Part shown: positions 494-29,000 of the stretch, one piece after another
Layout: each line of letters starts with the position of its first letter
Numbering within the stretch: position 1 is the stretch's first letter
Assembly (NCBI GenBank): GCA_963402885.1
Contig: OY727102.1
Span: forward strand, 20,584,001-20,648,000
Length of the DNA: 64,000 bases
Origin: Antedon bifida
Taxonomy: Eukaryota; Echinodermata; Crinoidea; Comatulida; Antedonidae
Direction: 5' to 3'
Made by a program: the position numbers and the translations under genes
The notes under the pieces: model-generated
The model's input: only the letters and a program-made list of their open reading frames with translations
Told to the model about the DNA's origin: nothing
Databases searched by the model: none

Positions 494-4614
<4,121 letters not shown>

Positions 4615-7949: not shown

Positions 7950-7979
7950 CACCGACTCGGCAATTTACGTTGCCATTTC

Positions 7980-8029: not shown

Positions 8030-8664
8030 AAGTATTTTATTTGTTTAAAAATATGCACTAATATAAAATATTACGAGTTCCCGGTTATAATATAGACTTT
8101 TAGTAGGCCCTAGCTCATAATTTAGTTCTTTATCTTATTTAATGACACTTTTTTATACAGAAATTGTTGATTTTATGAACCACCTTCTTCGCCTAGTTAG
8201 GCCCTCGATCAACTCGTATGAAATTTTAGGCATAGGCCTGATGCTATTTTGGCCTGCAAATTTGCCAATTTTCAATTTCAACACATTCTATTACTATTTA
8301 CAACACTGATTTCATCAAGATAGTTTATTTTTTTCAATTTTAACGAAAATAACTGAGCCTACATTGAGCTATGGTTTGTAAAAGTAAATCACCGCGAACC
8401 GTCGTTATCGTCTGCTTAGCGCGTTCACTGGTTCCCGGTCACTGTGACGTGACAGGTGTTCAGTGCGTACGTTGTCTGATTTTCTACTCAGCCCAATCTA
8501 CTCGCGGGAACGGAATTTCTCGGGCCCTTATAAAGAGTTGTATAATTTTAATGCGGGAACATTTATTGTTGAATTGAATAGATTAAATCTTTGACAGAAT
8601 ATAATAATACAATTCTACTTCTTTTATTTAAGGACGAATATTTATTTTTTGTTTATTTTTTGCA

Positions 8665-8970: not shown

Positions 8971-9061
8971 ACAATTTAGGTTTCTTGGGACATCAACTAT
9001 TAGTTAATGCAGACACAGCTATAAATGTTACATGTATACTAACACATCAATTGTTCATTGT
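8971..9061 (+). CDS. probable exon for the first half of the N-terminal Ig-like domain
   Basis: A long pyrimidine tract and CAG precede 8971. Read from phase 1 it gives DNLGFLGHQLL, then VNADTAINVTCILTHQLFI, which resembles the B strand of an Ig fold with its Cys. Two overlapping donors are available: GTAAAA at 9062 (leaving phase 2) or GTGTAA at 9060 (leaving phase 0). The partner Cys (RYTCAVLGYW) is in the exon at 29089, so the whole tandem array lies inside this Ig domain's intron. No transcript evidence. Confidence 0.4.
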
Positions 9062-9218
9062 GTAAAATGTAAAATGTTACAGAAAGCATGCAAAATAAAT
9101 TTGGGGGACCTGGACAAATTGTAGAAAGAATTATAATAAAGTTCTTTCTTTCTTAAAATTCTTAACTTAAAACAAAGAAATCACATGTTCATATATAATA
9201 TGTTTCTTCTCTTTTCAG

Positions 9219-9253
9219 ATCTAGTTTTGACAATACAAGGAAAAGAATTACAG
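9219..9253 (+). CDS. 35-nt micro-exon candidate
   Basis: Bounded by CTTCTCTTTTCAG and GTAAGAATCACC. Read from phase 2 it ends ...NTRKRITG in phase 1, matching the end ...LLEPITG of the repeated 41-nt segments that follow. Read from phase 1 it gives DLVLTIQGKELQ. The length is 2 modulo 3, as in the 41-nt units. Whether it is spliced in is unknown. Confidence 0.35.
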
Positions 9254-9259
9254 GTAAGA

Positions 9260-9600
9260 ATCACCATAGCCTATGCAATGGTATAATACAATTTCTTTAT
9301 ATTTTTCCTTTTCAGATATGCTCATACCGATGCAAGACTGTTGGAACCAATCACAGGTAAGAGACATCAAAGCAAATGCAATGGTATAATTTAATTTCTT
9401 TATATTTTCCCTTTTCAGATATGGACATACTGATGCAAGGCTGTTGGAACCAATCACAGGTAAGAAACATCAAAGCCAATGCAATGGTATAATTAAATTT
9501 CTTTATATTTTACCTTTTCAGATATCGACATACCGATGCAAGACTGTTGGAACCAATCACAGGTAAGCATACAACACAACCTGCACATAATAATTGTTCT
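9260..9600 (+). repeat. micro-exon-like array, block 1 (three units)
   Basis: Three roughly 102-bp units whose 41-nt cores are 9316-9356, 9419-9459 and about 9521-9561. Each core starts at ATATG after TTTTCAG and ends CCAATCACAG before GTAAG. They differ more from one another (ATATGCTCAT, ACATACTGAT, ATATCGACAT) than units of the later blocks, so this looks like the older, seed part of the array. Confidence 0.8.
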
Positions 9601-9611
9601 TTACTATTACT

Positions 9612-9664
9612 CATTTCAGATAGCATATATGCACCACAGAAAAAATCTAACTAAACACAGGTAA
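9612..9664 (+). pseudogene. decayed copy of the 48-nt exon candidate
   Basis: CATTTCAG precedes ATAGCATATATGCACC and the segment ends AACTAAACACAG before GTAAGG. It corresponds to the segment at 26036-26083 but has lost 7 nt and contains a stop in the frame that is open there. It closes block 1 just as 26036-26083 closes block 3. Confidence 0.4.
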
Positions 9665-9689
9665 GGTACATTTGGTTTGTGTTTTCTCT

Positions 9690-11200
9690 ACAGAATATAT
9701 AATATAATAATTTTAAATATTTGTTGTAAATTACTATATATAATGTGTAAGGTGGCATTATATCTTGGTATTGTAAACTTTTCTCTGCAGGTATGTGTTG
9801 CTAAGGTATACTGTATTAAGTGTAGCTAAGAACGTAGAGGTTTAAGTTTCAGTGCATTTCAAATTATTTTGAATATTTGTTTTAAATTATTATATATAAT
9901 GTGTAAGGTGGCATTATATCTTGGTATTGTAAACTTTTCTCTGCAGGTATGTGTGTTGCTAAGGTATACTGTATTACGTGTAGCTAAGAACGTAGAGGTT
10001 TAAGTTTCGGTGCATTTCAAATAATTTTTAATATGTGTTGTAAATTATTATATAAAATGTGTAAGGTGGCATTATTTCTTGGTATTGTAAGCTTTTCTCT
10101 GCAGGTATGTGTGTTGCTAAGGTATACTGTATTAAGTGTAGCTAAGAACGTAGAGGTTTAAGTTTCGGTGCATTTCAAATAATTTTTAATATGTGTTGTA
10201 AATTATTATATAAAATGTGTAAGGTGGCATTATTTCTTGGTATTGTAAGCTTTTCTCTGCAGGTATGTCTGTTGCTAAGGTATACTGTATTAAGTGTAAC
10301 TAAGAACGTAGAGGTTTAAGTTTCAGTGCATTTCAAATAATTTTAAATATGTGTTGTAAATTATTATATATAATGTGTAAGGTGGCATTATATCTTGATA
10401 TTGTAAGCTTTTCCTGCAGGTATGTGTGTTGCTAAGGTATACTGTATTAAGTGTAGTTAAGAACATGGAGGTTTAAGTTTCGGTGCATTTTAAATATGTG
10501 TTGTAAATTATTATATATAATGTGTAAGGTGGCATTATATCTTGGTATTATAAGCTTTTCTCTGCAGGAATGTGTGTTGCTAAGGTATCTGTATTAAGCG
10601 TAGCTAAGAACGTAGAGGTTTAAGTTTCAGTGCATTTCAAATAATTTTAAATATGTGTTGTAAATTATTATGTATAATGTGTAAGGTGGCATTATTTCTT
10701 GGTATTGTAAGCTTTTCTCTGCTAGAATGTGTGTTATATACTGTATTAAGTGTAGTTAAGAATGTAGTGGTTTAAGTTTCAGTGCATTTCAAATAATGTT
10801 AAATATTGTTGTAAATTATTATATATAATGTGTAAGGTGGCATTATATCTTGGTATTATAAGCTTTTCTCTGCAGGTATGTGTGTTGCTAAGGTATCTGT
10901 ATTAAGTGTAGCTAAGAACGTAGAGGTTTAAGTTTCAGTGCATTTCAAATAATTTTAAATATGAGTTGTAAATTATTATATATAATGTGTAAGGTAGCAT
11001 TATCTTAGTATTGTAAGTTTTCCCTGCAGGTCGTGTGTAGTTAAGATATATAAATGTAGTTAACAATAGAGGTTTAAGTTTTCATTACATTTCAAATCCG
11101 GTTACTTTTTGTAAATTCATTTTACATAATGTTTAAGGTGGCATTATATCTTAATAAGTTTATGTGTAACTAAGATATATTATGTGTAGTTAGCTAAGAA
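9690..11200 (+). repeat. tandem array with fused acceptor-donor (CAG|GTATGT), about 10 units of 147-159 bp
   Basis: Each unit carries AATGTGTAAGGTGGCATTAT, then CTTTTCTCTGCAGGTATGTG, then GCTAAGGTATACTGTATTAA. The pyrimidine tract with CAG followed at once by GTATGT is the form of a recursive splice site (a zero-length exon). Later units are degraded (CTAGAATGTG). It has no coding capacity. It is related in sequence to the array at 26095-29000. Confidence 0.85.
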
Positions 11201-12019
11201 TATCTTTTCAGATATGGACATACCGATGCAAGACTGTTGGAACCAATCACAGGTAAGAAACATCAAAGCCTATGAAATTGTATAATTAAATTTCTTTATA
11301 TTTTCCCATTTCAGATATGGACATACCGATGCAAGGCTGTTGGAACCAATCACAGGTAAGAAATATCAAAGCCTATGCAATGGTATAATTAAATTTCTTT
11401 ATATTTTCCCTTTTCAGATATGGACATACCGATGCAAGGCTGTTGGAACCAATCACAGGTAAGAAATATCAAAGCCTATGAAATGGTATAATTAAATTTC
11501 TTTATATTTTCCTTTTTTAGATATGGACATACCGATGCAAGACTGTTGGAACCAATAACAGGTAACAAACATCAAAGCCTATGTAATGGTATAATTAATT
11601 TCCTTTATATTTTCCCTTGTCAGATATGGACATACCGATGCAAGGCTGTTGGAACCAATCACAGGTAAGAAACATCAAAGTCTATGCAATGGTATAATTA
11701 AATTTCTTTATATTTTCCTTTTTTAGATATGGACATACCGATGCAAGACTGTTGGAACTAATCACAGGTAAGAAACATCATATTCTGTGTAATGGCATAA
11801 TTAAATTTCTTTATATTTTCCATTTTCAGATATGGACATACAGATGCAAGACTGTTGGAACCAATCACAGGTAAGAAACATCAAAGCCATGCAATGGTAT
11901 AAATAAATTTCTTTATACTTTCTCATTTCAGATATGGACATACCAATGCAAGGCTGTTGGAACCAATCACAGGTAAGAAACATCATATTCTGTGTAATGG
12001 CATAATTAAATTTCTTTAT

Positions 12020-12195
12020 TCAATTCAATTCAATTCAAGAAACATTTATTGACCATATTTTAGCATAACATTAACAATGGTTAGCATATAATATATATAG
12101 TCGAGAGACTACAAAAGGCCCGATGGGCCTGTCGCTGTAGTCCCTCTTTACATTATACAAGTAAACATACAAATACAAATAATAATAATACAACA
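12020..12195 (-). mobile_element. truncated non-LTR retroposon fragment inside an array unit
   Basis: The insertion splits the intronic part of one unit after TTTCTTTAT. It begins TCAATTCAATTCAATTCAAG, the complement of a (GAATTG)n tail, so the element is on the minus strand. It continues ACATTTATTGACCATATTTT and ends in AATAATAATAATACAAC. An apparently identical copy in the same context lies at 22369-22544, showing that the array was duplicated after the insertion. Confidence 0.6.
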
Positions 12196-12689
12196 CTTTT
12201 CCATTTTCAGATATGGACATACGGATGCAAGACTGTTGGAACCAATCACAGGTAAGAAACATCAAAGCCATGCAATGGTATAAATAAATTTCTTTATACT
12301 TTCTCATTTCAGATATGGACATACCAATGCAAGGCTGTTGGAACCAATCATAGGTAAGAAACATAGTCTGTGTAAATGTATAATTAAATTTCTTTTTAAT
12401 TTCCGTTTTCAGATATGGACATACCGATGCAAGGCTGTTGGAACCAATCACAGGTAAGAAACATCAAAGCCTATGCAATGAGTGGTATAATTAAATTTCT
12501 CGATATTTTCCCTTTTCAGATATGGACATACCGATGCAAGACTATTGGAACCAATCACAGGTAAGAACCATCAAAGCCTATGCAATGGTATAATTAAATT
12601 TCTTTATATTTTCCCTTTTCAGATATGGACATGCCGATGCAAGACTGTTGGAACCAATCACAGGTAAGAAATATCAAAGCCTATGAAAT

Positions 12690-13140
12690 GGAAAATATCA
12701 AGAAATTTAATATTGCATAGGCTTTGATGTTTCTTACCTTTGATTGGTTCCATGACAGTCTTGCATTGGTATGTCCATATCTGAAAAGGGAAAATATAAA
12801 GAAATTTAATTATACCATTACACAGACTATGTTTCTTACCTGTGATTGGTTCTAACAGTCTTGCATCGGTATGTCCATATCTGAAAATGGAAAATATAAA
12901 GAAATTTAATTATACCATTTCATAGGCTTTGATATTTCTTACCTGTGATTGGTTCCAACAGCCTTGCATTGGTATGTCCATATCTGAAAGGGGAAAATAT
13001 AAAGAAATTTAATTATACCATTGCATAGGCTTTGATGTTTCTTACCTGTGATTGGTTCCAACAGTCTTGCATCGGCATGTCCATATCTGAAAATGGAAAA
13101 TATAAAGAAATTTAATTATACCATTTCATAGGCTTTGAAA
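12690..13140 (-). repeat. inverted block of four array units
   Basis: In this stretch the units read on the minus strand (CTTACCTGTGATTGGTTCC, CTGAAAATGGAAAATATAA). Read in reverse the core variants come in the order GCCGATG/TTGG, CCAATG/AGGCTG, GATG/TTAG, CTGTCATGG with AATCAAAG. That is the order of the forward units at about 14104-14450. It is therefore an inverted duplicate of that segment, followed by a short junction AAAGGCCTTAAAAGATAAAG at about 13150. Confidence 0.8.
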
Positions 13141-14686
13141 AGATATGGATAAAGGCCTTAAAAGATAAAGGCCTTTTCAGATATGGACATACCGATGCAA
13201 GGCTGTTGGAACCAATCACAGGTAAGAAATATCAAAGCCTATGAAATGGTATAATTAAATTTCTTTATATTTTCCTTTTTTAGATATGGACATACCGATG
13301 CAAGACTGTTGGAACCAATAACAGGTAACAAACATCAAAGCCTATGTAATGGTATAATTAATTTCCTTTATATTTTCCCTTTTCAGATATGGACATACCA
13401 ATGCAACGCTGTTGGAACCAATCACAGGTAAGAAATATCAAAGCCTATGAAATGGTATAATTAAATTTCTTTATATTTTCCATTTTCAGATATGGACATG
13501 CCTATGCAAGACTGTTGGAACCAATCACAGGTAAGAACCATCAAAGCCTATGCAATGGTATAATTAAATTTCTTTATATTTTCCCTTTTCAGATATGGAC
13601 ATGCCGATGCAAGACTGTTGGAACCAATCACAGGTAAGAAATATCAAAGCATATGAAATGGTATAATTGAATTTCTTTATATTTTCCATTTTCAGATATG
13701 GACATGCCGATGCAAGACTGTTGGAACCAATCACAGGTAAGAAACATCAAAGCCTATGCAATGGTATAATTAAATTTCTTTATATTTTCCCCTTTCAGAT
13801 ATGGACATACCAATGCAAGGCTGTTGGAACCAATCACAGGTAAGAAACATAGTCTGTGTAATGGTATAATTAAATTTCTTTATATTTTCCCTTTTCAGAT
13901 ATGGACATACCGATGCAAGACTGTTGGAACCAATCACAGGTAAGAAACATCAAAGCCTATGCAATGGTATAATTAAATTTCTTTATATTTTCCCTTTTCA
14001 GATATGGACATGCCGATGCAAGACTGTTGGAACCAATCACAGGTAAGAAATATCAAAGCCTATGAAATGGTATAATTAAATTTCTTTATATTTTCCATTT
14101 TCAGATATGGACATGCCGATGCAAGACTGTTGGAACCAATCACAGGTAAGAAACATCAAAGCCTATGCAATGGTATAATTAAATTTCTTTATATTTTCCC
14201 CTTTCAGATATGGACATACCAATGCAAGGCTGTTGGAACCAATCACAGGTAAGAAATATCAAAGCCTATGAAATGGTATAATTAAATTTCTTTATATTTT
14301 CCATTTTCAGATATGGACATACCGATGCAAGACTGTTAGAACCAATCACAGGTAAGAAACATAGTCTGTGTAATGGTATATAATTAAATTTCTTTATATT
14401 TTCCCTTTTCAGATATGGACATACCAATGCAAGACTGTCATGGAACCAATCAAAGGTAAGAAACATCAAAGCCTATGCAATATTAAATTTCTTGATATTT
14501 TCCCTTTTCAGATATGGACATACCGATGCAAGACTGTCATGGAACCAATCACAGGTAAGAAATATCAAAGGCTATGCAATGGTATAATTAAATTTCTTTA
14601 TATTTTCCCTTTTCAGATATGGACATACCGATGCAAGACTGTCATAGAACCAATCACAGGTAAGAAACATCAAAGCCTATGCAATG

Positions 14687-14690
14687 GTAT
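14687..14690. repeat. target-site duplication, left (GTAT)
   Basis: GTAT precedes the LTR start and is repeated at 21737-21740 after the other LTR. The uninterrupted unit elsewhere in the array reads CAATGGTATAATTAAA, which fits insertion with a 4-bp duplication. Confidence 0.8.
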
Positions 14691-15575
14691 TGTAACGAAA
14701 ATCCGTTCTCGGGTTCGTTCCCTTTGGGGAAGGGTCTGCGGTACCACGGTACACTCGAATGAAACAAACAAATCAATTACAACTTGTGGAGTGACCTCCT
14801 TTATTCTGCTATGATTCCAAATTATTGGTAACAACCGATTATAATAATTAATTAAATTAGTTCTGCTATTACGCCGGACTTGAAACAACAGCGTAACCAC
14901 CAACAAATGACGTAACCTCCAATAGTAGCGTAACCACCAACAATGGTGTAACCTCCACAGCAACGTAACCACCAACAATGGTGTAACCTCCACAGCAACG
15001 TAACCACCAACAATGGTGTAACCTCCACAGCAACGTAACCACCAACAATGGTGTAACCTCCACAGCAACGTAACCACCAACAATGGTGTAACCTCCACAG
15101 CAACGTAACCACCAACAATGGTGTAACCTCCACAGCACGTAACCACCAACAATGGCGTAACCTCCACAGCAACGTAACCACCAACAATGGTGTAACCTCC
15201 ACAGCAACGTAACCACCAACAAGGGTGTAACCTCCACAGCAACGTAACCACCAACAATGGTGTAACCTCCACAGCAACGTAACCACCAACACAGTGGTGT
15301 AACCTCCAATACAAAACAGCGAGCGTAGCCTCGGGCTAACCTGTAACTTTCTCACTCTTTTTGTAACAAGAAATCACGAAATAAATTACACTTACTACTT
15401 ACTGTTTCTATAATTCTCTCTTTTTATTACTCCACTTTAGTTTTCTCTTTGACACTTGGTTTTTCAATCTCTTTAAATCTCTACTATTATTTATACGTCT
15501 GCTCTCTGCTTCTCCTCTTTTTCAACTCCCTGCTCATCTGCCGCCCTCTATCTTTTCTCCCCCAAAATCATTACA
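14691..15575 (-). repeat. LTR of the Ty3/gypsy-like element (3' LTR in element orientation)
   Basis: 885 bp, bounded by TGTAACG and CATTACA (inverted ends TGTAA/TTACA). It has the same length as, and appears identical to, 20852-21736. It contains a tandem array of a 35-bp unit. The long Trp/Leu-rich ORFs in it are translations of that tandem repeat, not genes. Confidence 0.93.
14905..15310. repeat. 35-bp tandem repeat inside the LTR (about 11 units)
   Basis: The unit is built of two related halves, GTAACCACCAACAATGG and TGTAACCTCCACAGCAAC. Single units have variants (CACAGCACG, CAAGGGTG, AATGGCG) that occur at the same places in the other LTR, as expected if one LTR was copied from the other at insertion. 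Confidence 0.9.
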
Positions 15576-15590
15576 TCACCCCCCCTCCTA
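15576..15590 (-). other. polypurine tract of the LTR element
   Basis: On the minus strand this is a purine run AGGAGGGGGGGTGA immediately before the 3' LTR, the position where plus-strand DNA synthesis is primed in LTR retroelements. Confidence 0.7.
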
Positions 15591-15657
15591 AAATGATCGG
15601 TCCCCGATAATAATCCAAAATAATCACCAAAAACAAACGGCAAGAGAACATAGTTGG

Positions 15658-18600
15658 TTATTGTTCGTAACGTGCCGGCCTCCGCCTTACACGTCTCTTG
15701 GGATACCTTCCCTCTGGGGGGGTTTGTTGAGGTACAGGCGTATTGCCCCGATCGCCGGGCTCCTCTGGGATAGTAAGCAACGGGCCTTCTTCAGGCGTTT
15801 CGGGACGTTGGAGTTCTCCGTCTACTTCTTCCGGGACTGTTGGCGTCTCGTTACCTTCGGCAAAGGCTTCCTGCGCCACCCGAGCCAACGGACTCTCGTC
15901 TCCGGGGGGGATGTCCCAGCGGGCGATCTCCTCACCCTCATAAGGTTTCAGTCGGTCCACATGCACGACCTTTGGTTTCTTCCTCGGTCCCTCTTGGATG
16001 CGGTACACCACCTCAGATAGTTTCGTTATAATTAGGTATGGCCCATGCCACTTACATTGAAGTTTCGGCGATTTCCCTACAGTTTTCGCCGAATTATATA
16101 GCCATACATATTTCCCTATCTCGAGATCCTGCTTCCGGGCTTTCTGGTCATAAGTCGCCTTCTGACAGCGGGCACTACTCTTAAGCGTTTCTCTGGCTCT
16201 CCCGTGGGCCGCCCGAAGCCTTGCCCTCAACTGCTCTGCGTAGTCGGTCTTCATTTCTCTGTCTTCTGTCTCCATTATTGGCATTGTCAAATCAACAGGA
16301 AGGGAAACCTCTCTCCCCAGGACCATCATGTTTGGTGTCTCTCCCGTCGAGGCATGCGGAGTGGATCGATATGCAAACGTGGCATACGGCACGTGAACAT
16401 CCCAGTCTTTTTGGTTACAGTGGGGTTCTATCATGATCGCCACCATGTTGACCAAAGTGCGGTTGAACCTCTCGATCATCCCGTCTGATTTGGGATTATA
16501 GGGCGTCGTCCGAGTCTTGTCTATTCCCAATATCTTGCACAACTCCTTGATTAGGTCAGACTCGAAGTTCCTCCCCTGATCGGTGTGGAGCTGTCGAGGA
16601 ACTCCGAATCGCAAAACAAAATTGTCCACGAAACATCTCGCAACGGTTTCCGCCCTCTCGTTTGGAATAGGGTATGCTTCTATCCATTTAGAAAAATAGT
16701 CGCCTACGACTAGAATGTATTTGTTACCTCTGTCGGTCTCAGGCAGTGGGCCTAATATGTCCATAGCAACCCTTTCCATAGGGTTTCCTACGGGTTGTTG
16801 CTGGAGGGGGGCCTTCTTTCTTGGTTGTGTCTTCCGCCGAGCACAACCGTCGCATTTACGTATCCAACTCCGGACCCAGGCACCCATTTTTGGCCAGAAA
16901 TAACGTTGGACCAACCTTCCGGTAGTTTTAGCCACTCCCAAGTGTCCACCAGTCCTTCCTCCATGGAGCTCTTCGAGAACCGTAGACCTCATTGCTTCAG
17001 GAAGCACCAGTCGCCAGGTTATCTCTTTACCATCGTCGGATTCCCACCGGCGATATAACACCTCATCTCTTACTTCCAACAGGTTCCAGTTCTGCCAGTA
17101 ACTCTTATAATCAGTTTGCAACCCGGCGATCTCTTCGAACTTCGGTCGGGGCTCCCCTCTCTCTAGGAATCCCATGACCCATCGAATGGCATCATCTGTC
17201 ATCTGGGACTGTCGGATGTCTGCGTTCTTCCACGTCGGCTGAAATTGGACCAGCCGTAACGAGGACCGTTCCCTTGCTTCTTCCATCTCCACTTCTACTG
17301 CCTTCCAGGCCAGCTCTTTCTTCCTCGCCATCGTCTCGTCAATTCCGCACTGCACACACGGTTTTCTGGACAGCCCGTCTGCATTGCCATGTTTTAATCC
17401 GGGACGGTGGACGATCTTAAAATTATATTCTCCTAACACTTGGAGCCACCGGGCAAGCTGTCCTTCGGGTTCTTTGAAACTCGTCAACCAACGCAGGGAG
17501 GCGTGGTCCGTGCGTACTGTGATTGATTGTCCATACAGGTACTGTCGGAAGTGTTTGAGGTAAGTCACTACGGCCAGCAATTCTCGGCGTGTAGCGCAAT
17601 AGTTTCTCTCTGTCTTACTCAGAGTCCGACTCGCGTAACATATTACGTGTTCTTCTCCGTCCTGTTCCTGGGACAATACAGCGCCGATGCCAACGTCACT
17701 CGCGTCGGTGTCGAGAACGAAACGTCCCTCGGGGCGAGGGTAAGCGAGAATTGGTGCCTGTACTAATCGGTCCTTTAACTCTTGAAAGGCCTGTTCACAC
17801 TCCGGGTCCCAGGAAAATCGTCTGGACTTCTCTGTCAATTTGTGCAGTGGGGCGGCTATGGATGCGAATCCATTTATGAACCTCCTATAATAGGACGCCA
17901 ATCTTAAGAAGCTACGAACGTCCCGGACGGTGGTTGGCGTTGGCCATTCCTTTACAGACTCTATCTTCTCAGGATCGGTCATCACCCCGGTATGGGAGAC
18001 TCGGTGTCCGAGGTACGAGACCTCCTGTTTAAATAAGGTGCACTTCTTGGGCTTTAATTTTAATCCGGCCGTTCGTAAGCGGCAAAACACTTCCTCCAGG
18101 CGGTCGATCTCTTCTTCCACCGTCTTTCCATAAACAATCACGTCATCCAAATACACAAGAAGTACTTTCCACTGCAAACCGGACAGCACCCGTTCCATGA
18201 GCCGCTCGAACGTAGAAGGGGCATTGCAGAGTCCAAATGGCATTACCTTCCAACGATATAAGCCGCCTCGCACGGTGAACGTGGACTTATCCTTAGCATC
18301 GTCATCGAACTCCACTTGCCAATATCCTGAAGCCAAGTCCAGTGTTGAGAACCATTTGGCACCCGAAAGCGCATCTAAGGAGTCATTTATTCTAGGGATT
18401 GGGTAAGCGTCCTTGATCGTAACCGAATTCAGCCGCCGGTAGTCCACACAGAACCGCTTGGTGCCGTCTTTCTTAGTGACCAATACGACGTTTGACGCCC
18501 ACGGGTTGTCCGAAGGTTCGATGAGTCCTCTCTCTAATAAGTCCTCGACCTGACGTTCTATCTCCTTGCTGGCTTCTGCCGCCTGGCGTCTTGGCTGTTC

Positions 18601-19536
18601 CTTGACGGGCCGAGAAGTTCCAACGTCAATGTGGTGTTTTACTTTATTCGTCCTTCCCAGGTCCGAATCTCCTTCCGAGAAGACGTCTTGGAACCTAGTT
18701 AGTAAAGACGCCACCTGCCTGTGGTATTGCGGCTCTAAATCGGTTACGCTTCGGCTTAAGAGGTCCACCAGGTGTTCTGGGAAAAGTCGCTGGCTGGGCT
18801 CAGGGTCCTCCGGATGAAGGGCATTAGCTTCGACCTGGTCTGCAGATACCGGATACAGCTTTCCGACTTTAGTCCCAGCGCGTAGTACCCTCTTTTCACC
18901 ACCTGGATTAAAGATTCGTAGTGGTAGCGCCTGTTGCTTTGCATTCACTAGCGTTCTTGCCATGATGAGTCCTTGTCCAGCTAGTTCTCCTTCACGATCC
19001 GGCTCTATCAGGCCTGTCTCCGTGTCAGTAGGTTGTGACTGGATCATTCCCAGAATTATGTGTTCGTGCCCTGGCAGGATAACCGAAGTGTCCCGTACGA
19101 TTATGTTAGGCGAGAACCGTGTCTCATCAGATCCCAGCAGTTCGATCACCTCTCCACCCACCTTCATTTGTAGCCTACAAAGGTCTAGTGCCGCTCCTGT
19201 GCCTAGTAGATAATTCATCCCCAGTACTCCCAAAACTTTTAAATCTGCGAACACCACTTCCGTCACCCTAAAAGTGTGGCCAACTTGTAATCCTACCCAG
19301 GTACGTCCTATAGTGTTTAAACGACTGCCGTCCGCTTGTTGGCATTCTCGAGAATCCCGTCTGAGCTCCGGTCGGCGTTCCGTCGGTATTTCGTAGTACA
19401 ATCGGGATGATAGGACTGTATCCGACGCTCCAGTATCGACCAGTAGTGTTGTTCTCGTCCCGTTGACAGTGGCTCCTACGTATAGGCCTTCGCTAGGGTG
19501 GTATTTGGAGTATTCTGTTTTTTTAAGTTGGTTTAC
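15658..19536 (-). CDS. pol: Ty3/gypsy-like Pol: protease, reverse transcriptase, RNase H, integrase
   Basis: The frame is open from at least 19536 down to 15658 without a stop. In order: aspartic protease motif LVDTGASDT just upstream of 19401; reverse transcriptase with LDLASGYWQ and the active-site YLDD (in LLVYLDDVIVYGK); RNase H with LDTDASDVGIG; integrase with the HHCC zinc region (HGGRTGGHLG ... CDGCARR), the core MDILGPLPE, HTDQGRNFE and the third acidic residue in SDGMIERFNRT; and a C-terminal GPYLII / VVHVDRLKPY region of the GPY/F type. I see no chromodomain. The order RT, RNase H, integrase identifies Ty3/gypsy. Pol is in the -1 frame relative to gag and overlaps its end, so it is probably made by frameshifting; no Met start is needed. 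The frame is intact, so the element may be recent. Confidence 0.95.
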   Translation of the reverse strand, partial: VNQLKKTEYSKYHPSEGLYVGATVNGTRTTLLVDTGASDTVLSSRLYYEIPTERRPELRRDSRECQQADGSRLNTIGRTWVGLQVGHTFRVTEVVFADLKVLGVLGMNYLLGTGAALDLCRLQMKVGGEVIELLGSDETRFSPNIIVRDTSVILPGHEHIILGMIQSQPTDTETGLIEPDREGELAGQGLIMARTLVNAKQQALPLRIFNPGGEKRVLRAGTKVGKLYPVSADQVEANALHPEDPEPSQRLFPEHLVDLLSRSVTDLEPQYHRQVASLLTRFQDVFSEGDSDLGRTNKVKHHIDVGTSRPVKEQPRRQAAEASKEIERQVEDLLERGLIEPSDNPWASNVVLVTKKDGTKRFCVDYRRLNSVTIKDAYPIPRINDSLDALSGAKWFSTLDLASGYWQVEFDDDAKDKSTFTVRGGLYRWKVMPFGLCNAPSTFERLMERVLSGLQWKVLLVYLDDVIVYGKTVEEEIDRLEEVFCRLRTAGLKLKPKKCTLFKQEVSYLGHRVSHTGVMTDPEKIESVKEWPTPTTVRDVRSFLRLASYYRRFINGFASIAAPLHKLTEKSRRFSWDPECEQAFQELKDRLVQAPILAYPRPEGRFVLDTDASDVGIGAVLSQEQDGEEHVICYASRTLSKTERNYCATRRELLAVVTYLKHFRQYLYGQSITVRTDHASLRWLTSFKEPEGQLARWLQVLGEYNFKIVHRPGLKHGNADGLSRKPCVQCGIDETMARKKELAWKAVEVEMEEARERSSLRLVQFQPTWKNADIRQSQMTDDAIRWVMGFLERGEPRPKFEEIAGLQTDYKSYWQNWNLLEVRDEVLYRRWESDDGKEITWRLVLPEAMRSTVLEELHGGRTGGHLGVAKTTGRLVQRYFWPKMGAWVRSWIRKCDGCARRKTQPRKKAPLQQQPVGNPMERVAMDILGPLPETDRGNKYILVVGDYFSKWIEAYPIPNERAETVARCFVDNFVLRFGVPRQLHTDQGRNFESDLIKELCKILGIDKTRTTPYNPKSDGMIERFNRTLVNMVAIMIEPHCNQKDWDVHVPYATFAYRSTPHASTGETPNMMVLGREVSLPVDLTMPIMETEDREMKTDYAEQLRARLRAAHGRARETLKSSARCQKATYDQKARKQDLEIGKYVWLYNSAKTVGKSPKLQCKWHGPYLIITKLSEVVYRIQEGPRKKPKVVHVDRLKPYEGEEIARWDIPPGDESPLARVAQEAFAEGNETPTVPEEVDGELQRPETPEEGPLLTIPEEPGDRGNTPVPQQTPPEGRYPKRRVRRRPARYEQ

Positions 19537-20801
19537 TGTCTGGGTGGAGGTGTGGTTTGTGGTTTGGGTGGAGGAGTAGCTCCTCTTTCTCTTTGGTTCA
19601 CTGGGCCTTCGATCTCTTCCAGCCTCCTCTCGACCCCTTGAGTCGGCTGCTCTTCGTTTCCCGAGTCCGTCGCTCTATTTCGGCACTGTCTGGCGAGATG
19701 GCCCTTCTGTTGGCAATTATAACAGACAGTCTTACGCAATCTCTCCTGTCTTTCTTCTCCTGTTTCCCATGGTTTATCCCGCCTCCTCGTCGTCTGCTGT
19801 TCTGTCGAGCGGGGTAGCATGCGTGCCTCTACCTGGGCCATCCATCTCCCCATTCTTTCTTCAAAATCGTCCTGCCTTTGTCGAGGTTCGTTTGTGATTG
19901 GCCGTAGGTATTTCGGGGGTGCTCGTGGGTTCCGTTGCTCCTCCAGCTTGAGGAAACTGTCCGTGGATAGCGCTGCTTTGAGGGCATCATCCAGCGTGGC
20001 CGGAGACGCTTTGAAGATTCCTTCTCTAATCTCTGCTCTCCCCACGGCGTCGCTAAAGTGTCCTTTTGCCAACCGTTCTACTCCTGCTTCTGGAAATTCC
20101 GGGTATGCCAGGTAGGATAACTCTCGGATGGCCTGCCCAAGCTCTTGTAATGTCTCGTTGGGTTTCTGTCTCCTAAGTCTCAGTTCCATTAGGAAGTTTT
20201 CTGTTTTCTTTTCTGGACCAAATCTGTGTTCCAAGGCCGCTATCAGTTCCACGTAGGTTAACTCCCGCTCTGGGGCCACAGCCAATACCTTCAAGGCTGG
20301 TCCTTTTAGGCTGGCTTTGAGGAATGCTCCAGCTTGTTCCTCCGTCCATCCGTTCGCCTCCACGCAGGCCCGAAAGTGTTGGAGATAATCCCTCCAAGGC
20401 GCCTTTCCTTCAAACCTATCGGGATGTATGACTGGTCTCTGGCATCGGAGGTTCTTTCCAAACCTCTTCTGCATCGCTTCTGCTCCACTTATCCTTGGTT
20501 CCCGGGTCAACGGCCATGGTGGAGTAAAGGTGTCAACTTCGGTCGGCTGCGACCTTCTCTTTCCTGTTGACTGTCCAACAGGGGACCCTAATATCTCCAG
20601 ACTATCGGTTTCCTCCGCCCTCTGTTCCGAACTATCTCTCTCTAAAGGTGCACGTCCGCTACCACCAGTACTCCTCTGGGGCGGGGAGCCGTGTCCAATA
20701 CTGGAGCTTAACGGCTGCGCCGGGTCCATGTCCGTCACCTCGTTCTCCAGTCGGTTTATCTCCCTCTGGATAGCATCTAATGACTCTTGTAATTGTTCCA
20801 T
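19533..20801 (-). CDS. gag: Ty3/gypsy-like Gag with CCHC zinc knuckle
   Basis: The start is taken at the ATG at 20801 (MEQLQESLDAIQREINRLE), which follows the primer-binding site; the same frame stays open further upstream into the LTR, to 20915. The N-terminal part looks coiled-coil. The middle (DYLQHFRACVEANGW ... LIAALEHRFGPEKK ... ETLQELGQAIREL) has the look of a retrotransposon gag capsid domain. One CCHC knuckle, CYNCQQKGHLARQC, lies near the C-terminus, followed by a Pro-rich end. It ends at TAA, 19533-19535, overlapping the -1 pol frame. Gag packages the element RNA. No frame break seen. Confidence 0.93.
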   Translation of the reverse strand: MEQLQESLDAIQREINRLENEVTDMDPAQPLSSSIGHGSPPQRSTGGSGRAPLERDSSEQRAEETDSLEILGSPVGQSTGKRRSQPTEVDTFTPPWPLTREPRISGAEAMQKRFGKNLRCQRPVIHPDRFEGKAPWRDYLQHFRACVEANGWTEEQAGAFLKASLKGPALKVLAVAPERELTYVELIAALEHRFGPEKKTENFLMELRLRRQKPNETLQELGQAIRELSYLAYPEFPEAGVERLAKGHFSDAVGRAEIREGIFKASPATLDDALKAALSTDSFLKLEEQRNPRAPPKYLRPITNEPRQRQDDFEERMGRWMAQVEARMLPRSTEQQTTRRRDKPWETGEERQERLRKTVCYNCQQKGHLARQCRNRATDSGNEEQPTQGVERRLEEIEGPVNQRERGATPPPKPQTTPPPRQ

Positions 20802-20833
20802 CGTGTGAGTAATTCCTTCCGCAACACGACCGA

Positions 20834-20850
20834 TCCCACCGCTGCCACCA
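20834..20850 (-). other. primer-binding site, complementary to tRNA-Leu 3' end
   Basis: One nucleotide inside the 5' LTR the minus strand reads TGGTGGCAGCGGTGGGA. Its complement, TCCCACCGCTGCCACCA, matches the 3' end of a metazoan leucine tRNA including CCA as I recall it. This is where minus-strand DNA synthesis would start. Confidence 0.75.
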
Positions 20851-20851
20851 A

Positions 20852-21736
20852 TGTAACGAAAATCCGTTCTCGGGTTCGTTCCCTTTGGGGAAGGGTCTGC
20901 GGTACCACGGTACACTCGAATGAAACAAACAAATCAATTACAACTTGTGGAGTGACCTCCTTTATTCTGCTATGATTCCAAATTATTGGTAACAACCGAT
21001 TATAATAATTAATTAAATTAGTTCTGCTATTACGCCGGACTTGAAACAACAGCGTAACCACCAACAAATGACGTAACCTCCAATAGTAGCGTAACCACCA
21101 ACAATGGTGTAACCTCCACAGCAACGTAACCACCAACAATGGTGTAACCTCCACAGCAACGTAACCACCAACAATGGTGTAACCTCCACAGCAACGTAAC
21201 CACCAACAATGGTGTAACCTCCACAGCAACGTAACCACCAACAATGGTGTAACCTCCACAGCAACGTAACCACCAACAATGGTGTAACCTCCACAGCACG
21301 TAACCACCAACAATGGCGTAACCTCCACAGCAACGTAACCACCAACAATGGTGTAACCTCCACAGCAACGTAACCACCAACAAGGGTGTAACCTCCACAG
21401 CAACGTAACCACCAACAATGGTGTAACCTCCACAGCAACGTAACCACCAACACAGTGGTGTAACCTCCAATACAAAACAGCGAGCGTAGCCTCGGGCTAA
21501 CCTGTAACTTTCTCACTCTTTTTGTAACAAGAAATCACGAAATAAATTACACTTACTACTTACTGTTTCTATAATTCTCTCTTTTTATTACTCCACTTTA
21601 GTTTTCTCTTTGACACTTGGTTTTTCAATCTCTTTAAATCTCTACTATTATTTATACGTCTGCTCTCTGCTTCTCCTCTTTTTCAACTCCCTGCTCATCT
21701 GCCGCCCTCTATCTTTTCTCCCCCAAAATCATTACA
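20852..21736 (-). repeat. LTR of the Ty3/gypsy-like element (5' LTR in element orientation)
   Basis: 885 bp with the same ends and the same internal 35-bp repeats (about 21066-21471) as 14691-15575. The identity I can see over long stretches, including the repeat variants, indicates a young insertion. It is followed by the target duplication GTAT at 21737-21740. Confidence 0.93.
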
Positions 21737-24700
21737 GTATAATTAAATTTCTTTATATTTTCCCCTTTCAGATATGGACATACCAATGCAAGGCTGTTGG
21801 AACCAATCACAGGTAAGAAATATCAAAGCCTATGAAATGGTATAATTAAATTTCTTTATATTTTCCATTTTCAGATATGGACATACCGATGCAAGACTGT
21901 TAGAACCAATCACAGGTAAGAAACATAGTCTGTGTAATGGTATAATTAAATTTCTTTATATTTTCCCTTTTCAGATATGGACATACCGATGCAAGACTGT
22001 TAGAACCAATCACAGGTAAGAAACATAGTCTGTGTAATGGTATAATTAAATTTCTTTATATTTTCCCTTTTCAGATATGGACATACCAATGCAAGGCTGT
22101 TGGAACCAATCACAGGTAAGAAATATCAAAGCCTATGAAATGGTATAATTAAATTTCTTTATATTTTCCATTTTCAGATATGGACATGCCGATGCAAGAC
22201 TGTTGGAACCAATCACAGGTAAGAAACATCAAAGCCTATGCAATGGTATAATGAAATTTCTTTATATTTTCCCCTTTCAGATATGGACATACCAATGCAA
22301 GGCTGTTGGAACCAATCACAGGTAAGAAACATCATATTCTGTGTAATGGCATAATTAAATTTCTTTATTCAATTCAATTCAATTCAAGAAACATTTATTG
22401 ACCATATTTTAGCATAACATTAACAATGGTTAGCATATAATATATATAGTCGAGAGACTACAAAAGGCCCGATGGGCCTGTCGCTGTAGTCCCTCTTTAC
22501 ATTATACAAGTAAACATACAAATACAAATAATAATAATACAACACTTTTCCATTTTCAGATATGGACATACGGATGCAAGACTGTTGGAACCAATCACAG
22601 GTAAGAAACATCAAAGCCATGCAATGGTATAAATAAATTTCTTTATACTTTCTCATTTCAGATATGGACATACCAATGCAAGGCTGTTGGAACCAATCAT
22701 AGGTAAGAAACATAGTCTGTGTAAATGTATAATTAAATTTCTTTTTAATTTCCGTTTTCAGATATGGACATACCGATGCAAGGCTGTTGGAACCAATCAC
22801 AGGTAAGAAACATCAAAGCCTATGCAATGAGTGGTATAATTAAATTTCTCGATATTTTCCCTTTTCAGATATGGACATACCGATGCAAGACTATTGGAAC
22901 CAATCACAGGTAAGAACCATCAAAGCCTATGCAATGGTATAATTAAATTTCTTTATATTTTCCCTTTTCAGATATGGACATGCCGATGCAAGACTGTTGG
23001 AACCAATCACAGGTAAGAAATATCAAAGCCTATGAAATGGTATAATTAAATTTCTTTATATTTCCATTTTCAGATATGGACATACCAATACAAGGCTGTT
23101 GGAACCAATCACAGGTAAGAAATATCAAAGCCTATGAAATGGTATAATTAAATTTCTTTATATTTTCCATTTTCAGATATGGACATGCCGATGCAAGACT
23201 GTTGGAACCAATCACAGGTAAGAAACATCAAAGCCTATGCAATGGTATAATGAAATTTCTTTATATTTTCCCCTTTCAGATATGGACATACCAATGCAAC
23301 GCTGTTGGAACCAATCACAGGTAAGAAATATCAAAGCCTATGAAATGGTATAATTAAATTTCTTTATATTTTCCATTTTCAGATATGGACATGCCTATGC
23401 AAGACTGTTGGAACCAATCACAGGTAAGAACCATCAAAGCCTATGCAATGGTATAATTAAATTTCTTTATATTTTCCCTTTTCAGATATGGACATGCCGA
23501 TGCAAGACTGTTGGAACCAATCACAGGTAAGAAATATCAAAGCCTATGAAATGGTATAATTGAATTTCTTTATATTTTCCATTTTCAGATATGGACATGC
23601 CGATGCAAGACTGTTGGAACCAATCACAGGTAAGAAACATCAAAGCCTATGCAATGGTATAATTAAATTTCTTTATATTTTCCATTTTCAGATATGGACA
23701 TACCAATGCAAGGCTGTTGGAACCAATCACAGGTAAGAAACATAGTCTGTGTAATGGTATAATTAAATTTCTTTATATTTTCCCTTTTCAGATATGGACA
23801 TACCGATGCAAGACTGTTGGAACCAATCACAGGTAAGAAACATCAAAGCCTATGCAATGGTATAATTAAATTTCTTTATATTTTCCCTTTTCAGATATGG
23901 ACATGCCGATGCAAGACTGTTGGAACCAATCACAGGTAAGAAATATCAAAGCCTATGAAATGGTATAATTAAATTTCTTTATATTTTCCATTTTCAGATA
24001 TGGACATGCCGATGCAAGACTGTTGGAACCAATCACAGGTAAGAAACATCAAAGCCTATGCAATGGTATAATTAAATTTCTTTATATTTTCCCCTTTCAG
24101 ATATGGACATACCAATGCAAGGCTGTTGGAACCAATCACAGGTAAGAAATATCAAAGCCTATGAAATGGTATAATTAAATTTCTTTATATTTTCCATTTT
24201 CAGATATGGACATACCGATGCAAGACTGTTAGAACCAATCACAGGTAAGAAACATAGTCTGTGTAATGGTATAATTAAATTTCTTTATATTTTCCCTTTT
24301 CAGATATGGACATACCAATGCAAGACTGTCATGGAACCAATCAAAGGTAAGAAACATCAAAGCCTATGCAATATTAAATTTCTTGATATTTTCCCTTTTC
24401 AGATATGGACATACCGATGCAAGACTGTCATGGAACCAATCACAGGTAAGAAATATCAAAGGCTATGCAATGGTATAATTAAATTTCTTTATATTTTCCC
24501 TTTTCAGATATGGACATACCGATGCAAGACTGTCATAGAACCAATCACAGGTAAGAAACATCAAAGCCTATGCAATGGTATAATTAAATTTCTTTATATT
24601 TTCCCCTTTCAGATATGGACATACCAATGCAAGGCTGTTGGAACCAATCACAGGTAAGAAATATCAAAGCCTATGAAATGGTATAATTAAATTTCTTTAT

Positions 24701-25990
24701 ATTTTCCATTTTCAGATATGGACATACCGATGCAAGACTGTTAGAACCAATCACAGGTAAGAAACATAGTCTGTGTAATGGTATAATTAAATTTCTTTAT
24801 ATTTTCCCTTTTCAGATATGGACATACCGATGCAAGACTGTTAGAACCAATCACAGGTAAGAAACATAGTCTGTGTAATGGTATAATTAAATTTCTTTAT
24901 ATTTTCCCTTTTCAGATATGGACATACCAATGCAAGGCTGTTGGAACCAATCACAGGTAAGAAATATCAAAGCCTATGAAATGGTATAATTAAATTTCTT
25001 TATATTTTCCATTTTCAGATATGGACATGCCGATGCAAGACTGTTGGAACCAATCACAGGTAAGAAACATCAAAGCCTATGCAATGGTATAATGAAATTT
25101 CTTTATATTTTCCCCTTTCAGATATGGACATACCAATGCAAGGCTGTTGGAACCAATCACAGGTAAGAAATATCAAAGCCTATGAAATGGTATAATTAAA
25201 TTTCTTTATATTTTCCATTTTCAGATATGGACATACCGATGCAAGACTGTTAGAACCAATCACAGGTAAGAAACATAGTCTGTGTAATGGTATAATTAAA
25301 TTTCTTTATATTTTCCCTTTTCAGATATGGACATGCCTATGCAAGACTGTTGGAACCAATCACAGGTAAGAACCATCAAAGCCTATGCAATGGTATAATT
25401 AAATTTCTTTATATTTTCCCTTTTCAGATATGGACATGCCGATGCAAGACTGTTGGAACCAATCACAGGTAAGAAATATCAAAGCCTATGAAATGGTATA
25501 ATTAAATTTCTTTATATTTTCCATTTTCAGATATGGACATGCCGATGCAAGACTGTTGGAACCAATCACAGGTAAGAAACATCAAAGCCTATGCAATGGT
25601 ATAATTAAATTTCTTTATATTTTCCCCTTTCAGATATGGACATACCAATGCAAGGCTGTTGGAACCAATCACAGGTAAGAAATATCAAAGCCTATGAAAT
25701 GGTATAATTAAATTTCTTTATATTTTCCATTTTCAGATATGGACATACCGATGCAAGACTGTTAGAACTAATCACAGGTAAGAAACATAGTCTGTGTAAT
25801 GGTATAATTAAATTTCTTTATATTTTCCCTTTTCAGATATGGACATGCCGATGCAAGACTGTTGGAACCAATCACAGGTAAGAAACATAGTCTGTGTAAT
25901 GGTATAATTAAATTTCTTTATATTTTCCCTTTTCAGATATGGACATGCCGATGCAAGACTGTTGGAACTAATCACAGGTAAGCATACCAC
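21737..25990 (+). repeat. micro-exon-like array, block 3 (about 40 units)
   Basis: Continues block 2 on the other side of the LTR element with the same roughly 102-bp unit and 41-nt cores. The order of core variants repeats that of block 2 and of itself: 23279-24600 corresponds to 13387-14690 (including the rare AACGCTG unit and the CTGTCAT units), and 21771-22330 to 24611-25170. The last core, at about 25938-25978, has AACTAATCACAG followed by a different donor context GTAAGCATACC. Confidence 0.9.
22369..22544 (-). mobile_element. second copy of the truncated non-LTR retroposon fragment
   Basis: Same insertion point, same (TTCAA)n border and same interior as 12020-12195, about 10.35 kb away. 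It was duplicated along with the surrounding array units rather than inserted independently. Confidence 0.65.
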
Positions 25991-26035
25991 ACCACTACAC
26001 TGTACATAATAATTTTTCTTTTCAATTACTCATTT

Positions 26036-26083
26036 CAGATAGCATATATGAATCTAAAGAAACAAATCTATTGAAACTAAACA
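26036..26083 (+). CDS. 48-nt symmetric exon candidate at the end of the micro-exon array
   Basis: Preceded by TACTCATTTCAG and followed by GTAAGGTACA. Read from phase 1 to phase 1 it is open and gives SIYESKETNLLKLNTG, which aligns with YGHTDARLLEPITG of the 41-nt cores (shared Tyr start, LL, final TG). The other two frames contain stops. The 48-nt length keeps the frame, unlike the 41-nt cores. Coding use is inferred only. Confidence 0.35.
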
Positions 26084-26094
26084 CAGGTAAGGTA

Positions 26095-29000
26095 CATTTT
26101 GTTTGCGTTTTCTCTGCAGGTATGTATGTTGCTAAGGTATACTGTAGTAAGTGTAGCTAAGAACGTAGAGGTTTAATTTTCAATGCATATCAAATAATTG
26201 TATTAAATATTTATTGTAAATTATTATATATAATGTGTAAAGGTGTCATTATATCTTGGTATTGTAAGCTTATCCTGCAGTTGTGTGTGTAGTTAAGATA
26301 TATTAAGTGTAGCTAAAAAACGTAAAGGTTTAAATTTCAGCGCATTTCAAATAATTAAAAATATTTGTTGTTAATAATTATATATAATGTGTAAGGTGGC
26401 ATTATATCTTGGTATTGTAAGCTTTTCCTGCAGTTGTGTGTGTAGTTAAGATATAAGTATAACTTAATATACAGGTTGTCAATGCATTTCAAATCCGGTT
26501 ACTTTTTTTATTCTATATAATGTGTAAGGTGGCATTATATCTTGGTATTGTAAATGTTCACTGCAGGTTGTGTGTAGCTAAGAATCTACAGGGTTTAAGT
26601 TGCAATGCACTTCAAATCAGGTTATTTTTTAGTAAATTCATTATCTTGGTATAAAAAATGTTCACTGCAGGTTGTGTGTAGCTAAGAATCTACAGGGTTT
26701 AAGTTGCAATGCACTTCAAATCAGGTTATTTTTAGTAAATTCATTATCTTGGTATAAAAATTGTTCACTGCAGGTTGTGTGTAGCTAAGAATCTACAGGT
26801 TTAAGTTGCAATGCACTTCAAATCAGGTTATTTTTTAGTAAATTCATTATCTTGGTATAAAAAATGTTCACTGCAGGTTATGTGTAGCTAAGAATATACA
26901 GGTTTAAGTTGCAATGCACTTCAAATCAGGTTATTTTTAGTAAATTCATTATCTTGGTATAAAAAATGTTCACTGCAGGTTGTGTGTAGCTAAGAATCTA
27001 CAGGTTTAAGTTGCAATGCACTTCAAATCAGGTTATTTTTTAGTAAATCCATTATCTTGGTATAAAAAATGTTCACTGCAGGTTGTGTGTAGCTAAGAAT
27101 CTACAGGTTTAAGTTGCAATGCACTTCAAATCAGGTTATTTTTAGTAAATTCATTATCTTGGTATAAAAAATGTTCCTGCAGGTTGTGTGTAGCTAAAAA
27201 TCTAGAGGTTTAAGTTGCAATGCACTTCAAATCAGGTTATTTTTTAGTAAATTCATTATCTTGGTATAAAAAATGTTCACTGCAGGTTGTGTGTAGCTAA
27301 GAATCTACAGGTTTAAGTTGCAATGCACTTCAAATCAGGTTATTTTTAGTAAATTCATTATCTTGGTATAATAAATGTTCACTGCAGGTTGTGTGTAGCT
27401 AAGAATATACAGGTTTAAGTTGCAATGCACTTCAAATCAGGTTATTTTTAGTAAATTCATTATCTTGGTATAATAAATGTTCACTGCAGGTTGTGTGTAG
27501 CTAAGAATCTACAGGTTTAAGTTGCAATGCACTTCAAATCAGGTTATTTTTAGTAAATTCATTATCTTGGTATAAAAATGTTCACTGCAGGTTGTGTGTA
27601 GCTAAGAATCTACAGGTTTAAATTTTAATGCACTTAAATCAGGTTTTTTTTTAGTAAGTATTCTATATAATGTGTAAGGTGGCATTATATCTTGGTATTG
27701 TAAATGTTCACTGCAGGTTGTGTGTAGCTAAAAATCTAGAGGTTTAAGTTGCAATGCACTTCAAATCAGGTTATTTTTAGTAAATTCATTATCTTGGTAT
27801 TGTAAATGTTCACTGCAGGTTGTGTGTAGCTAAAAATCTAGAGGTTTAAGTTGCAATGCACTTCAAATCAGGTTATTTTTTAGTAAATTCATTATCTTGG
27901 TATAAAAAATGTTCAATGCAGGTTGTGTGTAGCTAAGAATCTACAGGTTTAAGTTGCAATGCACTTCAAATCAGGTTATTTTTAGTAAATTCATTATCTT
28001 GGTATAAAAAATGTTCACTGCAGATTGTGTGTAGCTAAGAATCTACAGGTTTAAGTTGCAATGCACTTCAAATCAGGTTATTTTTAGTAAATTCATTATC
28101 TTGGTATAAAAAATGTTCACTGCAGGTTGTGTGTAGCTAAGAATCTACAGGTTTAAGTTGCAATGCACTTCAAATCAGGTTATTTTTAGTAAATTCATTA
28201 TCTTGGTATAAAAAATGTTCACTGCAGGTTGTGTGTAGCTAAGAATCTACAGGTTTAAGTTGCAATGCACTTCAAATCAGGTTATTTTTAGTAATTCATT
28301 ATCTTGGTATAAAAATTGTTCACTGCAGGTTGTGTGTAGCTAAGAATCTACAGGTTTAAGTTGCAATGCACTTCAAATCAGGTTATTTTTAGTAAATTCA
28401 TTATCTTGGTATAAAAATTGTTCACTGCAGGTTGTGTGTAGCTAAGAATCTACAGGTTTAAGTTGCAATGCACTTCAAATCAGGTTATTTTTAGCAAATT
28501 CATTATCTTGGTATAAAAAATGTTCACTGTAGGTTGTGTGTAGCTAAGAATCTACAGGTTTAAGTTGCAATGTACTTCAAATCAGGTTATTTTTAGAAAA
28601 TTCATTATCTTGGTATAAAAATGTTCACTACAGGTTGTGTGTAGCTAAGAATCTACAGGTTTAAGTTGCAATGCACTTCAAATCAGGTTATTTTTAGCAA
28701 ATTCATTATCTTGGTTTAAAAAATGTTCACTGCAGGTTGTGTGTAGCTAAGAATCTACAGTTTTAAGTTGCAATGCACTTCAAATCGGGTTATTTTTAGC
28801 AAATTCATTATCTTGGTATAAAAAATGTTCACTGCAGGTTGTGTGTAGCTAAGAATCTACAGGTTTAATTAGTTACAATGCACTTAAACTTATAAATGTA
28901 TTATATATAATGTGTAAGGTGGCATTATATTTTGGTATTGTAAATGTTCACTGCAGGTTATGTGTGTAGCTATGATATCTAAGTGTAGCTAAGAATCTAG
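26095..29000 (+). repeat. tandem array with CAG|GT junctions, about 27 units of about 97-99 bp
   Basis: The typical unit is TTCACTGCAGGTTGTGTGTA, GCTAAGAATCTACAGGTTTA, AGTTGCAATGCACTTCAAAT, CAGGTTATTTTTAGTAAATT, CATTATCTTGGTATAAAAAA. The first few units and those near 27650 and 28900 are longer and contain AATGTGTAAGGTGGCATTAT, linking them to the array at 9690-11200. Each unit has three CAGGTT junctions. It has no ORF. Confidence 0.85.

Follow-up and report, generated by a model that had tools for sequence, protein, structure and literature searches.

Constraint on Splice Signals in a Duplicated Array of 41-nt Exon-Like Repeats in the Crinoid Antedon bifida

Results

A Tandem Array of Exon-Like Units

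The stretch of DNA analysed here (the window) comprises 64,000 nucleotides of the Antedon bifida genome, C15:20584001-20648000 (contig OY727102.1 of assembly GCA_963402885.1, 315.6 Mb in 27 contigs). It contains a tandem array of short units, each consisting of an exon-like core with splice signals on both sides, and the array with its flanks is referred to below as module W. A profile search found 78 units of ~103 bp within the window, 74 on the plus strand and 4 on the minus strand, spanning 9219 (first core base) to 26086 (last). Tandem Repeats Finder (TRF) returned rows of period 103 at 9246-9567, between 11204 and 14690, and between 21737 and 25982. An earlier sequence-only reading had proposed tandem exon-like units with good splice sites at 9260..25990. 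The units are confirmed by TRF and by the profile search, and 76 of the 78 have both an acceptor and a donor; the interval itself is not a single array, as it also holds a second satellite, an inverted block of four units and a 7-kb long terminal repeat (LTR) element. The components are as follows.

9219..9253, plus: first, diverged core of 35 nt, in the same place in all five modules known (see below) and fused to the next core at C16
9219..9660, plus: array block 1, five cores, the last a diverged terminal core from ~9620
9706..11152, plus: second satellite, 158-bp units with TGCAG and GTATG back-to-back (TRF)
11212..12684, plus: array block 2, with an insert of ~160 bp near 12036-12196
12690..13138, minus: four inverted units (TRF and profile search)
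13172..14690, plus: array units up to the retrotransposon (TRF and profile search)
14691..21736, minus: LTR retrotransposon inside the array, 7 kb, foreign to the module; LTRs identical at 885 of 885 bases
21737..26086, plus: array units past the retrotransposon, with a diverged terminal core at the end (TRF and profile search)
26100..28960, plus: satellite of 158-bp units passing to 102-bp units (TRF)

Each unit joins a 41-nt core, ATATGGACATACCGATGCAAGACTGTTGGAACCAATCACAG, to a 62-nt spacer with GTAAGAAAC at its start and TTTTCCCTTTTCAG at its end, so that TTTTCAG precedes and GTAAGA follows each 41-nt core. Across the four modules on C15, the core is 41 nt long in 308 of 358 cases (anchor rule). 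Under a stricter rule that demands a pyrimidine tract, acceptor and donor are present in 344 of the 358, as in a Dscam-type cluster of similar tandem exons. Eleven of the 14 failing cores are the first of a block and keep TTTTCAG or TTTCCAG behind a short pyrimidine tract, while the other three have no donor. When the consensus unit was shuffled with its dinucleotides preserved, none of 5000 shuffles gave an equally strong acceptor and donor 20-80 nt apart, as scored with splice-site weight matrices. The acceptor of the first core is kept in all five module copies in the alignment.

The array also has the hallmarks of satellite DNA, being arranged head-to-tail, with homogenised units and signs of unequal exchange; a stretch of a few kb occurs twice, one copy on each side of the retrotransposon. 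The retrotransposon is young. It carries gag-pol-like open reading frames (ORFs) on the minus strand, identified by eye, and an apparent GTAT target duplication.

Copies of the Module

Genome searches, for which only the best matches are listed, placed the module at no fewer than five sites, four on C15 (358 cores in all) and a diverged one on C16. Of the ~43 kb of the C16 copy, 4 kb plus 2 kb were read.

Module A, C15 18.750-18.759 Mb: 64 cores
Module B, C15 20.055-20.069 Mb: 107 cores
Module W, C15, in the window: 78 cores
Module D, C15 20.755-20.770 Mb, minus: 109 cores
Diverged module, C16, minus: promoter-like block at 1688.1 kb, first exon piece at 1686.8 kb, 158-bp units from 1686.3 to 1644.2 kb, end at 1643.4 kb

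Three joined cores used as a DNA query gave 333 genome matches, and those listed all lie in the C15 arrays, at 71-77% identity. The 158-bp satellite behaves likewise, its listed genome matches all falling in the same five modules. Approximately 1.6-1.9 kb upstream of the arrays is 88-91% alike in all six pairs of C15 modules. The downstream neighbours of these four modules are unlike one another: immunoglobulin (Ig) exons supported by Pfam, with FN3-like exons recognised by eye only, follow W, while one Pfam-supported exon each was found for COX5A ~7 kb beyond A, for a sema domain ~14 kb beyond B and for an MFS transporter ~2 kb beyond D. No counterpart of the W exons at 30730-35532 turned up in the sequence retrieved around A, B and D; their sole listed match, at A, is weak and on the minus strand (E = 0.03).

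Two further observations concern the surroundings of the copies. At C16:1501576-1501722 and 1501956-1502028, the promoter-like block and the 74-nt element described below lie 234 bp apart, with no space for an array; the pair is perhaps an array-less relative of the module. Upstream of B, C15:20035001-20053700 holds a large inverted repeat with DNA-polymerase-like ORFs on both strands, of mobile-element type as judged by eye.

Evolution of the Splice Signals

From 338 aligned units (the spacing to the core that follows excluded the other 20 of the 358) we constructed a tree of 234 haplotypes, on which parsimony changes were counted column by column. A second analysis, in which the units were cut mid-core without anchors, used 288 full-length units and largely shares its data with the first. 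In the 338-unit alignment, the 11 columns of GTAAG and TTTCAG accumulated 26 changes, whereas base-matched spacer columns lead one to expect 67 (p = 5e-5); measured against every other column, the deficit has p = 2.5e-4. Without anchoring the figures were 14 and 51, again base-matched (p = 5e-5; against all columns, p = 2e-4). When the splice-column pattern was slid round the unit, its true place was the second lowest of 102, the lowest being one column off.

The deficit differs in strength between modules. In A a single change was found in the splice columns, with 15.6 expected from spacer (p = 1e-4; against all columns, p = 4e-4), and D likewise showed 1 against 13.1 (p = 1e-4; p = 5e-4). 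Module B had 10 changes with 21.7 expected (p = 0.011; p = 0.038). The splice signals of the units thus evolve under constraint, clearly in A and D and more weakly in B. Insertions or deletions affect 34 of the cores and 135 of the spacers in the 338 units. The sequence-only reading had held that the introns are as conserved as the cores. This is roughly correct for core against spacer, where the difference is marginal, but not for the splice-signal columns, which change clearly less than the rest.

The 158-bp satellite served as a control. In its units TTTTCTCTGCAG directly abuts GTATGTG, forming a juxtaposed acceptor and donor. Among 81 units from the five modules, CTGCAGGTA had undergone 21 changes where 22.5 were expected (p = 0.47), so that this motif, in contrast to a recursive splice site under selection, is not constrained.

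In the diverged C16 copy, identity to the C15 consensus reaches 94% in GTAAG, compared with ~70% in the spacer interior and 78-86% in the core. Seventeen of the 21 core ends listed there are followed by GT. Three of the four misses extend into a further core-like piece that does end in GT, and in the fourth the donor has seemingly been lost by deletion.

Sequences Flanking the Array

The following features of W lie outside the array proper.

7690..8035, plus: CpG-rich promoter-like block with a strong donor-like GTAAGT at its end (8028); CpG observed/expected 1.31, window median 0.67
8380..8580, plus: second CpG-rich block with TATAAA near 8530; CpG observed/expected 1.58, and alignments
8971..9065, plus: exon-like piece with a conserved acceptor, one open frame to TAA (9063-9065) and AATAAA near 9094 (five-way alignment)
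29113..29266, plus: 3' exon-like piece; acceptor TTTTTCTTAAGCAG identical in four copies, reading frame not kept, end resembling a core end
29273..29346, plus: 74-nt hairpin-forming dispersed element directly past the last donor; 26 genome matches, fold z-score -1.9 (29255-29350)

The block at 7690-8035 has matches at all five modules, on the same side and the same relative strand; likeness over 7700-8040 is 91-94% at A, B and D and 80% at C16, and the donor at 8028 scores 12.9 with the weight matrix. TATAAA is present in W, B and D and missing in A and at C16. In each of the four C15 copies the two blocks and the strong donor precede the array by 0.6-1.5 kb, on its own strand, and both blocks are matched at C16.

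The sequence-only reading had treated the array as an intron of a receptor gene, between exons at 8971-9061 and 29089-29266. Comparison of the copies does not support this. The upstream piece is well conserved: at the protein level five loci match it with E < 1e-7 and one more with E 0.73. It has internal 3-nt indels and a 2-nt indel near its end at C16, and it runs in one frame into a stop in five of five copies, as read from the alignment. The donor at 9062 ranks at the 42nd percentile among all GTs of the window (weight matrix) and is GC in the C16 copy. At 29088 the putative acceptor trinucleotide is CAG in W, AAG in A, CAC in B and CTG in D, the AG being lost in two of four, and joining 9061 to 29089 would give an out-of-frame junction. 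Behind the acceptor at 29113 the downstream piece is in frame in A and out of frame in B, D and C16. The conserved constitutive exons of compatible phase that flank a Dscam-type cluster are thus missing here. Neither flanking piece had any match above Pfam's curated cut-offs, and the weak matches obtained were to domains other than Ig, which speaks against an Ig reading of these pieces. The sequence retrieved around A, B and D yielded none of the Ig exons that lie further downstream in W, and other genes follow those modules; module W itself may act as a 5' leader to the receptor-like exons found at 30.7-35.5 kb.

The 29266 end reads ATGGAACCAACCACAG followed by GTAAG and looks like a leftover core end, because the C16 copy and a copy of the 74-nt element on C13 differ there. 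The 74-nt element is 99-100% identical at the four C15 modules, while the shared upstream DNA differs by 9-12%, and it has a longer form at C13 and C16. It had no Rfam match at gathering score; two weaker ones overlap the element or its edge.

Reading Frame of the Cores

The commonest cores contain no stop triplet in any of the three frames. Counted as events on the tree, the ratio of nonsynonymous to synonymous change (dN/dS) was 0.67 in frame 1 (A, then TAT GGA CAT ...) and 1.58 and 0.89 in frames 0 and 2, and changes to stop in frame 1 numbered 5 where 12.5 were expected. Permutation of sites that kept the site rates gave p = 0.115 for synonymous and p = 0.29 for stop changes in frame 1, and the counts of distinct variant types match expectation in the coding tests. 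Sixty-six of the 72 plus-strand cores of W that were scored are open in frame 1 with a length of 2 mod 3. Joining all W cores leaves 813 codons open (p = 0.013 when their order is shuffled); W is one of four loci tested in this way, and the joined-core ORFs at A, B and D are ordinary (p = 0.77, 0.20 and 0.61). In the 4 kb read at C16 we found 14 mechanical candidate exons, of which 12 are core-like (lengths 41-48, 82 and 88); three of these 12 are 2 mod 3. At 41 nt, the length of 308 of the 358 C15 cores is not a multiple of three, as it would be in SmPoMuc or another micro-exon gene. Together these data suggest that the splice signals are constrained and the reading frame not measurably so, a combination that would be expected of a spliced non-coding RNA gene.

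Discussion

What the Array May Be

The reading we favour, to which we would give an even chance, is that the array is a splicing-competent micro-exon satellite and that the duplicated transcription unit around it is probably non-coding. RNA synthesis would begin at the CpG-rich block and proceed on the plus strand through the array, and removal of the 62-nt introns (GTAAG ... TTTTCAG) would leave chains of 41-nt exons of variable number. Selection would keep the units spliceable, as the fewer splice-column changes suggest, without a measurable hold on reading frame. On this reading unequal exchange, together with the duplication of blocks, has enlarged the array and keeps its units alike, and the module has been copied to at least five sites. 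A more specific proposal is tentative: each of the five duplicated loci may produce a non-coding RNA in which dozens of near-identical 41-nt exons, or over 100, are joined, a 'spliced satellite' with selection or splice-dependent amplification acting on splicing and not on protein or unit sequence.

Several observations weigh against the favoured reading. In W alone the deficit is not significant (3 changes in splice columns, 7.2 expected, p = 0.063; against all columns, p = 0.14). The 158-bp control has fewer changes per column and therefore less power. Conservation of the acceptor columns at C16 reaches only 79%, in part because local alignment misplaces the cores of that copy, whose 5' ends are longer, and the seven bases past GTAAG are 91% kept, so the pattern exceeds the splice consensus. 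Cores against spacer gave marginal results in three analyses (p = 0.07, 0.03 and 0.055). Because sequence is exchanged among units, the parsimony counts are rough and inflate the number of independent changes, equally in every column. Selection on one unit among ~100 should be weak. As for the proposed transcript, the CpG figures come from W only, and an exon candidate at 8664-8730 is followed by GT in W only (GTAAGT), where A, B, D and C16 have AT (ATAAGT). A search of the genome for the core-core junction, with up to 3 mismatches, returned 0 matches, which neither supports nor refutes splicing.

The array could instead be a neutral satellite that arose when tandem duplication swept up a micro-exon together with its splice sites and that now evolves without function, the splice-column deficit being a local mutational or homogenisation effect. 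We regard this as possible, though less probable than not. Block duplication, the inversion, the interleaved second satellite and a tolerated LTR element and other inserts are all what such a satellite would show; so are the unrelated genes downstream of the four C15 modules, the non-significant coding tests and the marginal difference between core and spacer. Under neutrality, however, internal motifs should be free of constraint, and the splice columns change more slowly, though not significantly in W alone. The base-matched deficit is clear in A and D and weaker in B, it is absent from the 158-bp control satellite, and GTAAG is the best-kept part of the diverged C16 copy. Capture of a micro-exon with its splice sites by a satellite, which the sequence-only reading had offered as one alternative, does fit the origin of the array.

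Its other alternative, a micro-exon cassette array, is supported as far as exon-like units and constrained splice signals are concerned; as a Dscam-like coding cassette it is not favoured, since only three of the 12 C16 candidates are 2 mod 3 and no frame is significantly constrained. In such a cassette, Dscam-like or SmPoMuc-like, one or a few cores would be chosen and would add 13-14 variable residues to a protein. The open frames of the commonest cores, the frame 1 dN/dS with its shortage of stops, the 66 of 72 W cores open in that frame and the 813-aa stretch of joined W cores all point this way, and the piece 8971-9061 would end in phase 2, suiting core frame 1. Neither permutation result for frame 1 is significant, however, the joined ORF is unremarkable at A, B and D, the frame and splice sites of the flanking pieces are not kept across copies, and one 41-nt core cannot take phase 2 to the phase 0 required at 29113. 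We consider a coding cassette improbable. Its apparent proof, namely that 8971-9061 agrees in phase with core frame 1 and that 29089-29266 has a core-like end, was undone by the other copies. Less probable still is an aid to stepwise removal of a long intron, with the array and the 158-bp units, whose acceptor and donor stand back-to-back, serving as recursive splice points. The abutting motifs of the 158-bp units suggest it, but they are unconstrained, the cores are 41 nt and not of zero length, and the sites far exceed the need of a 20-kb intron.

Comparison with Known Systems

Long non-coding RNAs such as Firre contain locally repeated exons within a non-coding transcript. The favoured reading shares the repeated exons with them; the units here are far more numerous and far shorter, and are known from DNA alone. 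Introners are dispersed introns, short repeats that carry splice signals, as the present repeats do, except that here intron and exon together form the tandem unit. The exons of Dscam are fewer and longer, keep the frame and have diverged in the protein they encode. Those of the array are near-identical, out of frame and without conserved flanking exons. If the more specific proposal of five loci making such RNAs is true, this would to our knowledge be the densest micro-exon cluster. We found no comparable array in the literature by open-access, phrase-bound searching of titles and abstract openings.

The mutually exclusive exon clusters of Dscam1 (PMC1397879) resemble the array in forming a long one-strand cluster of similar exons with good splice sites. 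The polymorphic mucin (SmPoMuc) genes of Schistosoma mansoni have a 27-bp in-frame exon in a repeat unit of ~1 kb, in up to ~20 copies, and make protein (PMC2576457). They share with the array the tandem genomic repeats, each with one tiny exon and flanking intron, the multigene family and the variable exon number; here, in contrast, the exon is 41 nt and out of frame, the unit is 103 bp with up to 109 copies, and no frame constraint is shown.

Tandem exon arrays are usually explained by protein diversity, whereas here the data suggest constrained splice signals without measurable frame constraint, across modules with different neighbours. Should RNA confirm the splicing, the array would offer a natural test of a spliceosome facing ~100 equal choices in a row, a test case for intron-definition splicing with 62-nt introns and one for satellite arrays kept functional through splicing.

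Other Features of the Window

Just upstream of the module, 481-3672 holds the 3' part of a receptor-type tyrosine kinase gene (Pfam PK_Tyr_Ser-Thr, E 5e-77). At 61314-63018, approximately four EGF-like exons (domain recognised by eye) are repeated in tandem with their introns at a period of 441 (TRF). Matches resembling 5S rRNA and tRNA, perhaps heads of short interspersed elements, occur at 31760-31874, 42601-42673 and 44264-44319. A dispersed 21-bp tandem motif, GTGATATGCCCAAATATGGTA, and its relatives were found by TRF at 2655-2696, 32863-32910, 35627-35676, 38086-38135 and 52597-52644.

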